This document shows positions 16,024 through 34,121 of a DNA stretch of 64,000 bases, piece after piece (the stretch's first letter is position 1; every line of letters begins with the position of its first letter). Location: contig JAAXUP010000002.1 in the NCBI GenBank assembly GCA_013335935.1, forward strand, positions 1-64,000, read 5' to 3'. A model generated the notes under the pieces. The model was not told the DNA's origin, searched no databases, and worked only from the letters and a program-made list of their open reading frames with translations. A program made the position numbers and the translations under genes. Origin of the DNA: Eubacteriaceae bacterium. GTDB taxonomy: Bacteria > Bacillota > Clostridia > Eubacteriales > Alkalibacteraceae.

Positions 16024-16857
16024 ATGAAAACAATGATTGAATTTAAAGACGTCAAATATATATATAAAAAGCATGAAGGCGAAGAAACTACTGCTATTGA
16101 AAATATCAGTTTTACTATAGAAAAGGGAGAGTTTATCGGAATCATAGGACATAACGGTTCAGGTAAGTCGACTCTTTCAAAGCTTATCAACGGAATTTTA
16201 CATCCCACTCACGGCGATGTGATCGTCGCGGGTTTCAACACCAAAGATCACAGTAAGATATGGGATATCAGGCAGAATGCAGGCATGGTATTTCAAAATC
16301 CCGATAATCAATTGGTCGCGACCATGGTGGAAGAAGATGTTGCGTTTGGTCCAGAGAACCTGGGAATCGATCCTAAGGAAATTAGAAAACGTGTGGATGA
16401 GGCACTTGAAACGGTTGAAATGGGGGCATATAAAAATAAAAAACCCCATATGCTTTCGGGTGGCCAGAAGCAAAGGATCGCAATCGCAGGGATCCTTGCG
16501 ATGAAACCAAAGTGCATCATTCTTGATGAACCCACAGCGATGCTTGATCCATCTGGAAGAAAAGAAGTGATGGATACCATTAAAAAGCTTAACAGAGAAG
16601 AAGGAATTACCATTGTTCATATCACCCATTACATGGATGAGATCGTAGAAGCGGATCGAGTGATCGTAATGGATAACGGACGGATTGCCATGAAGGGCAA
16701 ACCTTTTGAAATTCTGACCCAGGTTGAAAAACTAAAAAGTTTACGACTTGACGTTCCGCAAATCACAGAGCTTGCATTTCAACTGAAAAATGAGCATCTG
16801 ATTGACGATGATAAAATATTGACAGTGAATGAGATGGTGAAGAAATTATGTCAATAG
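16024..16857 (+). CDS. ecfA1: ECF transporter ATP-binding subunit EcfA1
   Basis: A 277-aa ABC ATPase of the energy-coupling-factor module that powers uptake of vitamins and cobalt/nickel through interchangeable S components. Walker [10 protein letters not shown] is at 42-50, LSGGQ at 144-148 and the Walker B DEP at 168-170. It overlaps ecfA2 by 10 nt and forms a heterodimer with it. The gap upstream (15878-16023) shows a 6-bp hairpin near 15908-15942 but no clear promoter. Confidence 0.95.
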
Positions 16858-17711
16858 AGATTACAAAGTTATCCCACATATATTCGCAAAATACCCCGTT
16901 TGAATCATCAGCGCTATGTGAAGTCTCTGCAGTAATAGAAAAAGGAGATTTCATTGGTCTTATCGGTCATACCGGCTCAGGGAAATCAACTTTGATACAG
17001 CATTTAAATGTGCTTTTGAAACCTACATCAGGATCCATACTGATCGATGGGGTTGATATTAATGCAAAAGGGACGAAAGTCAGAGATATCAGACAAAAGG
17101 TCGGTTTGGTATTTCAATATCCTGAACATCAGCTTTTTGAGGAGACCGTGGCAAAAGATGTTGCCTATGGACCGGGAAATCTTGGACTTCCCGAGAATGA
17201 AATCGTTCAGAGAGTTAAAGATGCGGTGAACATGGTTGGACTGGATTATGAGAAAATTAAAGATAAATCGCCCTTTGAATTAAGCGGCGGTCAGATGAGA
17301 AGAGTCGCTATTGCAGGCGTTCTGGCGATGAGTCCTGATATCTTGATTTTGGATGAACCCACTGCAGGACTTGATCCAAAGGGTAGAGACGATATACTAA
17401 AGGTGATCAAAGAATTGCATAAAGAAAATAATATTACGGTGATTCTGGTTTCCCATAGCATGGAAGATATTGCAAAACATGTAAACAAGATCATGGTGAT
17501 GTATAATGGCAAAATCGAGTTTTACGATACACCTGAAAAAGTGTTTGCTCAGGCGGACCGACTGGAAGAGATCGGACTGGGTGTTCCCCAGGTCACTTAC
17601 CTTATGAAAGAACTTAAAAAAACGGATCCCTTGGTCAGAGATGATATTTATACGATAGACCAGGCGAAGGCAGAGATCATTAATATGCTTAGGAGAAGAA
17701 AAAATGCTTAA
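16848..17711 (+). CDS. ecfA2: ECF transporter ATP-binding subunit EcfA2
   Basis: A 287-aa ABC ATPase. Walker [10 protein letters not shown] is at 40-48, LSGGQ at 145-149, Walker B DE at 169-170. Its longer N-terminal region and position second in the cluster fit EcfA2. It overlaps ecfT by 8 nt, so the module is translationally coupled. Confidence 0.95.
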
Positions 17712-18510
17712 AGACGTTACCATCGGACAGTATTATCCGACTGACTCAATAATACATAGGCTGGACCCACGGACAAAAATTCATTTTACATTCTTATATA
17801 TCATCATCCTGTTCATGATCGATAACTTTGCCGGATATGTAATGGCCTTCGCCTTTCTTATTGGGATAACGTTGATATCAAAAATTCCACTGGGATATAT
17901 CGTAAGAGGCGTAAAAGGGCTTGTATTCATTATCCTGATAACGGTCTTTATTAATCTGTTTATGACTCCAGGAACTCCGATTTTCAAATTCTGGATACTG
18001 GAAATAACGGATAAGGGCCTGGAGGTGGCTATATTCATGGCTTTAAGGCTTATCTTTCTGGTAACGGGAACTTCCCTCATGACACTGACTACCTCGCCTA
18101 TAGCCCTGACAGATGGCATAGAATACTCCATAAAGGCGATACCCTTTATAAAAAATTATGCCCATGAGCTGGCAATGATGATGACTATCGCGCTGCGATT
18201 CATTCCCACGCTTATGGAGGAAACCGATAGGATCATGAAGGCTCAAAAGGCAAGGGGCGCAGATTTTGAAAGCGGGAACATGATCAAGAGAGCAAAAAAT
18301 CTCATACCGATCCTGGTTCCATTGTTTGTCAGTGCTTTCAGGAGGGCTGATGAGCTTGCCATAGCCATGGAGGCAAGGTGCTACCGCGGGGGAGACAACA
18401 GAACAAGACTCAATGAACTGAAGTATCACAAAATCGATTTATACGCTTATGTGATCATCGTACTGATGACGGCAGCTATCCTTTCCACAAGATTTATTTT
18501 TAACTGGTGA
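17704..18510 (+). CDS. ecfT: ECF transporter transmembrane subunit EcfT
   Basis: A 268-aa membrane protein with about five hydrophobic segments. The cytoplasmic coupling helices carry AQKARGADF and [10 protein letters not shown], matching the two ARG motifs that bind the ATPases (the second reads ARC). It scaffolds EcfA1/EcfA2 to substrate-binding S components, none of which is encoded here except possibly the QueT protein at 32177. Confidence 0.94.
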
Positions 18511-30653: not shown

Positions 30654-30679
30654 GATGAGGATGTTCCACTAGCGCGCTA
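30654..30679. repeat. Degenerate left half of the two-hairpin repeat
   Basis: This stretch aligns with the first 26 nt of copy A at about 20 of 25 positions with one gap, including TTC-ACTAGC-CGCT. Like the full copies it follows a terminator T run. The right half is missing and replaced by the end of the patatin gene, whose stop codon (30677-30679) lies inside it. Confidence 0.5.
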
Positions 30680-31993
30680 TCGGCTTGTCAGATAGAGCAA
30701 AGTCAGAATGGAAAGAGATACTTCGGGGGTGAAACGATTTAACAGCTTGATGAAGTGAATCTTAGAGTTTATATTCATACTGAGAAAATACATATAATAT
30801 CCAAGGAACTTTATTTTTGTGACTGGACTGATCTCCATTTCATCATAAGGTTTAAATACATCCAGAATGCTTGATGTATTCTTAATGATATTTAAATTTT
30901 CAGTAATCAAATAGTTGGTCGTTTCAAAGATCAGCTTGATCAGTTCATCTTCCGTAAGCTTCTGCAACCGATCAATGCCTAAATTCTTAGCTGTAATTTC
31001 AAGCATACTTAGTGCGGGTTCTTGTCCGCGGAAGGCAGTACCGCCCAGGAGCTTGTTTATTGCTCCCAACATTTCGTCCTTGCCCTCAAGTCTTTCCATA
31101 CCCAGCAGCATGGGCAGTTTAATACCATCTTCTCCGGCCACCGGAAAACCAAGTTTCTCCTGGAATGCCAGAAAAGTAGTATTCTCTTTTTCAGTTTCTA
31201 TATAGTAATAGTTTCCTTTGACTGCTCCGAATTTCTTTAATGCATCCAGATATCCCATCTCGATGTTTCGTTTCATCAAATCGGGATTAAACTCCAATAT
31301 AAGGCCAAGATATTCAGAATTGTTTATATGAATGATATTGACTTTTTCATTTCTGTTTCTTAATTTTAATCCTGGTGGTGATGGAAGTTCGACAGTGATC
31401 AAATCTTTGAATCCATTGTCAGCCAGAAGGTCGATGGGGAGGTTATCATAAAGACCGCCATCGACAAAAATTTTTCCGTCGATTTCATGTCGCTTGAATA
31501 CGGGTAATGCTGCACTTGCCAGTAAGTAGTCGATCAGCTGGCCTTTTGGGATATCCTCGATCATAAGCTCCAATGGCTTCAAATCAGTAAGTGATACAGT
31601 CACCAGACCCAGACGGATGGAAGATTTTCTAAGCTTGTCTTCGTCGATATATTTATTCAAGGTTTCTTTTAAAGGGGTGATATCCAGACCGCCATCAAAT
31701 ACGTAGCCTTTGAAGGAAGTTGTGAATTCGCTCCAGTCTGCTTTTGACCAGTCCGAAAGATACTTGTCAGTGATATTTTTGTTGAATTCAAATACCTTGT
31801 CCATGGAAAGGTTTGACCAGAATTCATAGGCTAAATCAAATTCATTTTGAGCAATCAAAGCTCCGTTTAATGCGCCAACGGAGGTCCCTGCTACGGCATC
31901 GATTTCAATGCCCATTTCTCGAAGAGCCTTCCATACCCCAATTTCAAAAGAACCTTTCGCTCCGCCTCCGCTTAAAACCAACCCATATCCCAT
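30677..31993 (-). CDS. Patatin-like phospholipase
   Basis: A 438-aa protein. The patatin fold occupies about residues 1-280: oxyanion loop GGGAKGS at 9-15, nucleophile S38 in GTSVG and the catalytic aspartate in DGGLYDN near residue 178. It probably hydrolyses membrane lipids or acyl esters. The C-terminal 130 residues are helical and unassigned. No signal peptide. AGGGAG precedes the ATG at 31993. Its 3' end runs into the repeat remnant. Confidence 0.88.
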   Translation of the reverse strand: MGYGLVLSGGGAKGSFEIGVWKALREMGIEIDAVAGTSVGALNGALIAQNEFDLAYEFWSNLSMDKVFEFNKNITDKYLSDWSKADWSEFTTSFKGYVFDGGLDITPLKETLNKYIDEDKLRKSSIRLGLVTVSLTDLKPLELMIEDIPKGQLIDYLLASAALPVFKRHEIDGKIFVDGGLYDNLPIDLLADNGFKDLITVELPSPPGLKLRNRNEKVNIIHINNSEYLGLILEFNPDLMKRNIEMGYLDALKKFGAVKGNYYYIETEKENTTFLAFQEKLGFPVAGEDGIKLPMLLGMERLEGKDEMLGAINKLLGGTAFRGQEPALSMLEITAKNLGIDRLQKLTEDELIKLIFETTNYLITENLNIIKNTSSILDVFKPYDEMEISPVTKIKFLGYYMYFLSMNINSKIHFIKLLNRFTPEVSLSILTLLYLTSR

Positions 31994-32090: not shown

Positions 32091-32119
32091 TTGAAATAAC
32101 GTCCGGCATAAAGTATAAT
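32091..32119 (+). promoter_or_regulatory. Promoter of queT
   Basis: TTGAAA at 32091-32096 and a perfect TATAAT at 32114-32119, 17 nt apart. Transcription would begin near 32126, just before the riboswitch. Confidence 0.8.
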
Positions 32120-32129
32120 AATAGCTCGC

Positions 32130-32170
32130 GACAGTTCGCAAAATCCTGTCACTAAATAAAACTACGGAGG
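32130..32170 (+). promoter_or_regulatory. PreQ1-I riboswitch controlling queT translation
   Basis: A 5-bp stem GACAG (32130-32134) with CTGTC (32146-32150) closes the loop TTCGCAAAATC. An A-rich tail ACTAAATAAAACTACGG follows and runs into the Shine-Dalgarno CGGAGG. This is the compact H-type pseudoknot layout of the preQ1-I class, resembling the Thermoanaerobacter tengcongensis aptamer. Binding would hide the ribosome-binding site. The next gene being queT is strong support. Confidence 0.82.
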
Positions 32171-32176
32171 AATAAA

Positions 32177-32656
32177 ATGGAGAACAAAACAAAATTTTTA
32201 GTTAAAGCGGGAATCATTGCAGCTTTATATGCTGTATTGACGCTGCTCATTGCCCCTTTGTCTTATGGACAAATGCAGATCAGGATATCAGAAGCCCTGA
32301 CGATCCTTCCTTTTTTCACGCCGGCCGCTATTCCGGGACTCTTTGCAGGTTGCCTTCTGGCTAACTTTTTCGGTAGTCCCCTTGGGATGCTGGATGTAAT
32401 TTTAGGGAGTCTTACGACCCTGGTTGCTGCCTGGATGGCATCGAAGATAAAAAATAAGTATTTAGTTCCGCTGCCGGCAATACTGCTTAATGCGATGGTT
32501 ATTCCCTATGTGCTCTATGTATTTCTCGGATTTCCATACCTTGTATCTGTACTGTGGGTGGGATTAGGAGAAATCGCTGCTGTATACGGCCTTGGATTGC
32601 CGCTTTTACTTTTCATTGAGAAGAACAAAGCGGTAAAAGACATGATAAAAGACTAA
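32177..32656 (+). CDS. queT: QueT-family queuosine precursor transporter (ECF S component)
   Basis: A 159-aa membrane protein with about five hydrophobic segments. The N-terminus with AGIIAALYAVLTLLIAPLSY, then MQIRISEALTILPFF, is typical of the QueT (DUF988) family. It is thought to take up preQ1 or a related precursor through the shared ECF module, plausibly the one at 16024-18510. No queuosine biosynthesis genes are seen here. Confidence 0.88.
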   Translation: MENKTKFLVKAGIIAALYAVLTLLIAPLSYGQMQIRISEALTILPFFTPAAIPGLFAGCLLANFFGSPLGMLDVILGSLTTLVAAWMASKIKNKYLVPLPAILLNAMVIPYVLYVFLGFPYLVSVLWVGLGEIAAVYGLGLPLLLFIEKNKAVKDMIKD

Positions 32657-32696
32657 AAAAGAAAATCACCTGTGAGGGTGATTTTCTTTTTTAGTC
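32651..32696. terminator. Bidirectional terminator between queT and murC
   Basis: A perfect 20-bp stem (32651-32670 with 32677-32696) around a 6-nt loop, with six As on one side and six Ts on the other. It begins inside the queT stop codon region and serves the convergent murC. Confidence 0.9.
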
Positions 32697-32705
32697 TGAA
32701 GAGTA

Positions 32706-34121
32706 TTATTTTCCGTATTTTAACTTTAAGGCATCAACCAGATCATAGGCAACTTTGTTTATTGTCTGGGAACCTGCCACAAGTATAAAATCGCCCTCCA
32801 CAGCATTCTCAATGACGTAGCTTACGATGTCCTCAAATTTGCTGATATGCTTTGCAGGGATCGAAAGCCTCTCTTCCACTGCTTTTGCAAGATCTTCATC
32901 CTTGATGGGCCACTTGTTGGCTTCCCGGTCAGAATAGATGTCATTGATAACGACCATATCTGCCCCTTTGAAAGCGTCAACGAATTCATCAAAGAAATAA
33001 TAGGTTCTGGAATAGGTATGAGCCTGGAAGATCACCCATAACCGGTTGTATTTGTAATTCTGGCAGGCCTGAACGGTGACTTTGAGTTCGGTTGGGTGAT
33101 GGGCATAGTCTTCGATAACAGTGATTTTGTTGACGACCCCTCTGAGTTCAAATCTTCTTCCCGCACCGGCGAATTCCAGCATTGTCTCAATGATGATATC
33201 CCGGTCAACTCCCACATAGTCAGCACATGCAATGGCAGCTATCCCATTCATGACATTATGTTCTCCTGGAATACTCATCTTGACGTGACCGAAAAGCTCG
33301 CCGTTGTGAATAACATCGTACTCAGGTTTGCCCAGTTCATCGTATACGATGTTGATTGCGGCATATTCATTTGATTTATTCTGTCCAACAGTTATGATCC
33401 GGCAGTCCAGGCCCTGTGTTACGTCCAGGACATCCTTGGAGTCCCCATTAACGATAAGAACGCCCTCTGGGGGGATGATTTTGCTGAAATTATGAAAGGA
33501 CTCCTTAATATGGTTGATGTCTTTAAAATAATCAAGATGATCTTCTTCAATATTAAGGATTACTCCAATACTATGGTGAGATTTAAGGAAACTGTCAACG
33601 AACTCGCAGGCTTCCGTAACGAAATATTCGCTGTTACCTACCCGGAAGTTACTGTCAAAAAGGCTTATCTTTCCGCCTACGCTCACGGTAGGATCGAAAT
33701 CGCCCCTGTACAGAAGTGATGCGATCAAAGATGAGGTCGTCGTTTTACCGTGGGTCCCAGAAACAGCGATGGTTTTACTAAAATCTCTGGTTAGCGCGCC
33801 TAAAAAATCAGATCTCTCCATAAGTGGGATTTCCAGCTCTCTGGCTCTTACCATTTCCGGATTATCACTATGAATTGCTGCTGAATAAACAACTAGGGTA
33901 CAGTTGTCGCTGATGTTTTTCTTATCATGTCCTATATAGATCCTGGCGCCTTTTTCTGAAAGCTTCTCCGTGTAGTTGGAAGCCCTCATGTCTGAGCCGG
34001 CAACGGCAATACCTTTGTTCATAAGGATAGAGGCAAGACCGCTCATGCTCGTTCCTCCGATGCCGATAAAATGCACAAGGTTCAGTTTTTTATTAATGAC
34101 TTTTTCTAAATATGTTTTCAA
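32706..34121 (-). CDS. murC: UDP-N-acetylmuramate--L-alanine ligase
   Basis: A 471-aa Mur ligase adding the first amino acid of the peptidoglycan stem. The N-terminal HFIGIGGTSMSGLA is the UDP-binding loop, ATP-binding GTHGKTTTS is at 122-130, and DYAHHPTE marks the C-terminal region. It starts with TTG at 34121 after a GAGGG site. It stands alone rather than in a division cluster. Confidence 0.96.
   Translation of the reverse strand: MKTYLEKVINKKLNLVHFIGIGGTSMSGLASILMNKGIAVAGSDMRASNYTEKLSEKGARIYIGHDKKNISDNCTLVVYSAAIHSDNPEMVRARELEIPLMERSDFLGALTRDFSKTIAVSGTHGKTTTSSLIASLLYRGDFDPTVSVGGKISLFDSNFRVGNSEYFVTEACEFVDSFLKSHHSIGVILNIEEDHLDYFKDINHIKESFHNFSKIIPPEGVLIVNGDSKDVLDVTQGLDCRIITVGQNKSNEYAAINIVYDELGKPEYDVIHNGELFGHVKMSIPGEHNVMNGIAAIACADYVGVDRDIIIETMLEFAGAGRRFELRGVVNKITVIEDYAHHPTELKVTVQACQNYKYNRLWVIFQAHTYSRTYYFFDEFVDAFKGADMVVINDIYSDREANKWPIKDEDLAKAVEERLSIPAKHISKFEDIVSYVIENAVEGDFILVAGSQTINKVAYDLVDALKLKYGK

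Follow-up and report, generated by a model that had tools for sequence, protein, structure and literature searches.

A preQ1 class I aptamer with type I sequence marks ahead of queT in a Eubacteriaceae bacterium, most likely acting on translation

The locus raises the question of whether the short leader of queT is a preQ1 class I riboswitch, and of which type it is and how it would act on the gene. The window, by which we mean the whole stretch of 64,000 nucleotides that was analyzed, holds queT as a single plus-strand gene between two minus-strand genes, a patatin-like gene and murC. The QueT product belongs to its family by a PF06177 profile score of 156.6 bits against the curated cut-off of 33.7. 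The features of the locus are the following.

16024..18510, plus strand: ECF energy module, with ATPases at 16024-16857 and 16848-17711 and a T component at 17704-18510 (profile matches)
30677-31993, minus strand: patatin-like gene, one neighbour of queT
32091..32119, plus strand: sigma-70-type promoter, TTGAAA, 17 nt, TATAAT (11 of 12 consensus bases)
32130..32134, plus strand: P1 5' strand, GACAG (sequence; P1 covariation in class alignment A3)
32135..32145, plus strand: aptamer loop UUCGCAAAAUC, 11 nt (residue roles from PMC8752633)
32146..32150, plus strand: P1 3' strand, CUGUC (sequence; covariation)
32151..32164, plus strand: A-rich L3 and conserved tail AAAACUA (alignment of relatives)
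32165..32170, plus strand: CGGAGG, the extra C of the short-loop group and then the Shine-Dalgarno GGAGG (sequence)
32177..32656, plus strand: queT, S component of an ECF transporter, 159 aa (PF06177)
32651..32697, strand undecided: terminator-like hairpin after queT (minus in the pattern scan; by eye it could serve both strands)
32706-34121, minus strand: murC, the other neighbour of queT

The leader runs in the order GACAG-UUCGCAAAAUC-CUGUC-ACUAAAU-AAAACUA-CGGAGG, followed by the ATG at 32177. The tail AAAACUA lies at 32158-32164, and GGAGG (32166-32170) begins one base after its CUA, with its first bases at the pseudoknot helix P2. Upstream, TTGAAA (32091-32096) and TATAAT (32114-32119) are 17 nt apart. 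Since 901 bases gave three promoter-like sites where shuffles predict 2.0, the promoter call relies on position and match rather than on count. The predicted transcript start is near 32126, about 7 nt past TATAAT and about 4 nt before P1, in agreement with the start that the original prediction had placed some 4 nt ahead of the aptamer. In all six genomes of the family, a −10 box, with at most one mismatch to TATAAT, has its end 8-10 nt upstream of P1. Among the 98 distinct aptamers sampled from the class, −10-like boxes stand 4-16 nt before P1 in 36, against 19.5% in shuffled upstream sequence, which is a weak enrichment overall. The aptamer (32130-32164) lies 10 nt past the TATAAT box and directly ahead of GGAGG and the queT ATG, and the leader sequence thus supports the predicted tight packing of promoter, aptamer, and ribosome-binding site.

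The Rfam model RF00522 (PreQ1) matches 32126-32171 with 14.2 bits and an E-value of 2.2 (4227 families, 311 bases). PreQ1 is the best-scoring of all Rfam families for the leader stretch, yet far under its gathering score of 39. At the gathering score, Rfam found no PreQ1 match anywhere in the window, and the proposed check with the Rfam preQ1-I model, taken as a gathering-level match, came out negative. The search of the whole genome was uninformative, with 15 weak PreQ1 matches, among which the queT leader ranks 11th and ten sites score higher. The gathering score was reached by none of 20 leader loci of relatives, indicating that the Rfam cut-off misses this clade; when 14 of them were rescanned with E-values allowed up to 10, PreQ1 was listed for seven, with scores of just 21.1-28.2 bits. 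A gathering-score match does not count as a defining biological feature of a preQ1-I riboswitch. Because the window gave no match at that score, a model was built from relatives, on which the identification rests. Two other RNA elements were matched in the Rfam scans, namely an S10-Clostridia ribosomal protein leader at 275-354 of the window (38.4 bits against 35.1) and a tetrahydrofolate riboswitch (L027, 1295-1402, 82.1 bits) near the queT locus of another family.

The queT survey covered 120 genomes (the bacterium's own and relatives), 80 of which carry queT. We read 70 queT loci, 30 given by the survey and 40 fetched separately, and 35 match the leader pattern, including the window and all five family relatives. 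Alignment A1 contains 23 of these 35 leaders, 12 near-identical ones being left out, and leader L067, which lacks the pattern, was recognized by the model at a later stage and added to alignment A2. Model R2 was made from A2 with 18 leaders of other families; it contains neither the window nor any of the five family relatives. R2 scores the window aptamer at 47.8 bits with a rough E-value of 3.3e-10, and no other site in the 64 kb exceeds 9.9 bits. The five family relatives score 47.3-61.8 bits, and the aptamer stands ahead of queT in 6/6 genomes of the family. The nearest named QueT relatives come from a Eubacteriaceae metagenome assembly (74% identity), Alkalibacter mobilis (72%), and an Alkalibaculum bacchi metagenome assembly (67%). 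The 20 invariant columns of the 23-leader alignment are the same 20 that are invariant in the 18 other-family leaders, and all are intact in the window. On sequence grounds, we regard the preQ1 class I aptamer ahead of queT as confirmed, and the original prediction of a preQ1-I riboswitch before a lone queT is borne out by the other-family model and PF06177.

The wider searches used R1, a model containing the window itself. Matches were obtained in 44 of 67 genomes of the order (E ≤ 0.05) and in 152 of 391 genomes of the class (E ≤ 0.001), and the window aptamer is the only R1 match in its own genome. The class sample, a part of all class matches, combines the loci given automatically with 60 retrieved by position. 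After 4 repeat loci were dropped, 111 entered the sample and 110 of them parsed, giving 98 distinct aptamers, with a queT-like gene downstream of 75. In 89 distinct class rows, P1 pairs 9-33, 10-32, 11-31, and 7-35 have both partners changed in 29, 17, 5, and 23 rows, and the compensatory changes include A-U (60) to U-A (29) and C-G (72) to G-C (17). The sixth P1 pair is standard in 85/89 rows, with both sides changed in 23; in the window, which is not a row of this alignment, it is C-A. The entered structure has a covariation score of 0.308, against 0.079 for shuffles and ≤0.062 for slid versions, and this score includes two entered P2 pairs, one at a column gapped in 88/89 rows. Several P2 pairings tried on the class sample found no covariation support, and no P2 register emerges because the 10-34 pair is standard in only 35 of the 83 twelve-nt loops. 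The layout of an H-type pseudoknot, with a P1 hairpin, a loop of roughly 12 nt, an A-rich linker, and a conserved tail, is recognized from the 47.8-bit match and P1 covariation, P2 itself finding no covariation support. A separate element in L059 (2382-2425, 30.2 bits) has P1 and the loop without the A-rich linker and is perhaps an aptamer remnant.

The three types of preQ1-I riboswitch were reportedly defined by McCown et al. in 2014. The original prediction gave no subtype, and while its class assignment holds, the sequence marks point further, to type I. In the published work, type I is marked by UU on P1, UC before the P1 3' strand, and a CUA tail (PMC11625349, PMC8752633), type II by AC before the P1 3' strand (PMC11625349), and type III by a pyrimidine-rich loop (PMC10622847). 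The window aptamer has UU at 32135-32136, UC instead of AC at 32144-32145, and CUA at 32162-32164, and it has no pyrimidine-rich loop. According to the Carnobacterium study, U6, U7, U16, C17, A30, and C31 form a pocket that holds two stacked preQ1 molecules (PMC8752633). In that numbering, loop UUCGCAAAAUC supplies U6, U7, C8, G9, C10, A11, and A12, then AA, and then the equivalents of U16 and C17, while the tail supplies those of A30 (32161), C31 (32162), U32 (32163), and A33 (32164). Since the type I marks and equivalents of all six pocket bases are present, the window riboswitch is expected, by analogy, to bind two stacked preQ1 molecules. It could instead be a preQ1-I riboswitch for a single preQ1, in which a shortened L2 spoils the second site; between A12 and U16 the loop indeed lacks one nucleotide that most relatives have, near the known pocket. 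We consider this unlikely, as the β-site bases U7 and C31 are kept in the window and in 91/91 A3 rows, and the window has UC where type II has AC.

The short loop has its own pattern. Among the 98 distinct aptamers, 13 have loops of 11 nt, 83 of 12 nt, and 2 of 14 nt. The 11-nt loop UUCGCAANAUC always occurs with a CUACG tail (11/11), whereas the other two 11-nt loops have other tails and CG is at that tail position in 17/83 twelve-nt loops (Fisher p 1.3e-5, kinship not corrected). The ribosome-binding site and start adjoin the tail in 11 of the 13 aptamers with 11-nt loops. We found no mention of the association of UUCGCAANAUC with CUACG in the preQ1 riboswitch literature searched, McCown et al. 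2014 apart. We hypothesize that a one-base shift of the P2 register would explain the link between loop and tail. Tentatively, UUCGCAANAUC may define a short-loop type I sub-group of 11 nt in which the lost base is compensated by CUACG, the P2 register is shifted by one, and base pairs G9-C34 and C8-G35 become possible across the ribosome-binding site; this is possible but doubtful. In the 12-nt loops, loop base 15 and tail length vary together: loops ending in CCUUC go with CUAAAGG in 14/15 cases and those ending in CCAUC in 0/67 (98 aptamers, kinship not corrected).

We next consider the mode of control. CUA and the ATG are 12 nt apart with GGAGG between them, which leaves no room for a terminator, and the pattern scan found no terminator-like plus-strand hairpin in the leader. 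With GGAGG only one base past CUA, the switch most likely acts on translation of queT, and the predicted translational control is supported by this arrangement. The same aptamer might instead control transcription, by termination or pausing. In 42 of the 83 relatives with twelve-nt loops there is no ribosome-binding site and start beside the tail, and versions with another expression platform therefore seem to exist; for the window, the 12-nt gap with GGAGG inside it and a leader free of terminator-like plus-strand hairpins make control of transcription very improbable. In three distant loci (L055, L056, and L057, queT 27-32% identical), the aptamer tail is 90-115 nt before the ATG with no adjoining ribosome-binding site, and these probably carry another expression platform.

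Control of translation by the window riboswitch would proceed as follows. The transcript would begin a few nucleotides upstream of P1. With little preQ1, GGAGG would be free and QueT would be made. With enough preQ1, probably bound as a stacked pair, the AAAACUA tail and the loop would form an H-type pseudoknot lying against GGAGG and masking part of it, and queT translation would fall. QueT and the shared ECF module would import preQ1, which Tgt and QueA would use on tRNA. At the type 1 preQ1-I riboswitch of Listeria queT, preQ1 represses translation and two preQ1 molecules are bound (PMC12519234). In Carnobacterium, the pseudoknot seems to matter more than ribosome-binding-site pairing, and G34 pairing is not needed (PMC11625349).

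Folding the leader without ligand favours a hairpin GCGA/UCGC (32128-32139) over P1 by 1.7 kcal/mol, in a program that includes neither pseudoknot nor ligand. This hairpin, GCGA-CAGU-UCGC, overlaps P1 and the loop. We set it aside as a built-in switch; among 16 folded leaders it occurs in the window only, and P1 is in the minimum in 14. In the same kind of secondary-structure fold, without pseudoknot or ligand, the stability of the leader does not exceed that of its shuffles (z −0.51). The low Rfam score, the C-A sixth P1 pair, and the competing hairpin might suggest a decayed aptamer that has lost switching, a reading we hardly credit given the 20 intact columns and the retention of P1, tail, promoter distance, and ribosome-binding site among family relatives 67-74% identical in QueT.

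The genome was also inspected for the use of preQ1. The genes tgt and queA are direct neighbours on a different contig. QueF and QueH were not found in any of the six family genomes. The only QueC match in the own genome was rejected as LarE (TIGR00268, 328.7 bits against a cut-off of 150), and a real QueC was not found there. QueG was not found in the own assembly (G000), in which QueA is present, but it exceeds the cut-off in 5/5 family relatives. We therefore rejected the idea that the family as a whole lacks an oQ reductase, and an assembly gap (268 contigs) or recent loss is likelier. Of the genes proposed for checking, tgt and queA are present, queG and QueF were not found in this assembly, and the QueC match is LarE. 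Tgt and QueA without QueF, QueH, or a real QueC support preQ1 salvage, as had been suggested. In the ECF module, both ATPases exceed the ECF cut-offs, and the CbiQ-family T component falls short of the cobalt equivalog cut-off, a result that a general T component may give. QueT and QrtT are described as S components for queuosine precursors (PMC11130926). The module at 16024 named in the original prediction is real, and it is fair to infer that QueT imports preQ1 together with this module (16024-18510).

Taken together, the locus is very probably a preQ1 class I type I riboswitch controlling queT translation. The aptamer, the subtype residues, its position at the ribosome-binding site, the conservation before queT, and tgt with queA are the sequence basis; the ligand, two-fold binding, and the direction of control would follow those of studied relatives.

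Listeria already provides a demonstrated case of a type I queT riboswitch that acts on translation. The riboswitch of Listeria monocytogenes queT (PMC12519234) has the same class, type, and gene, an aptamer directly at the ribosome-binding site, and is the single predicted preQ1 riboswitch in its genome; it differs in organism and in having been studied in the laboratory, and the likeness is one of description. The type I riboswitch of Carnobacterium antarcticus (PMC8752633) shares with the window the six ligand contacts and also C8, G9, C10, A12, U32, and A33. In contrast to it, the window loop has 11 nt instead of 12 (U6 to C17), an extra C lies between CUA and GG, and L3 is longer by the Carnobacterium numbering. 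Clostridioides difficile, likewise of the Clostridia, has a preQ1-I riboswitch before queK-qrtT-queL and salvages preQ1 through an ECF S component (PMC11477304); there it precedes a three-gene operon, whereas queT stands alone in the window.

The window contributes one more type I preQ1 riboswitch with good support, and the Rfam PreQ1 gathering score passes over clear members of this Clostridia clade. With the short-loop group, nature provides a test of where the two-ligand pocket tolerates shortening. If the proposed register shift is true, the group would be a structural variant with a tighter cover of GGAGG and possibly a different cooperativity between the two ligands.
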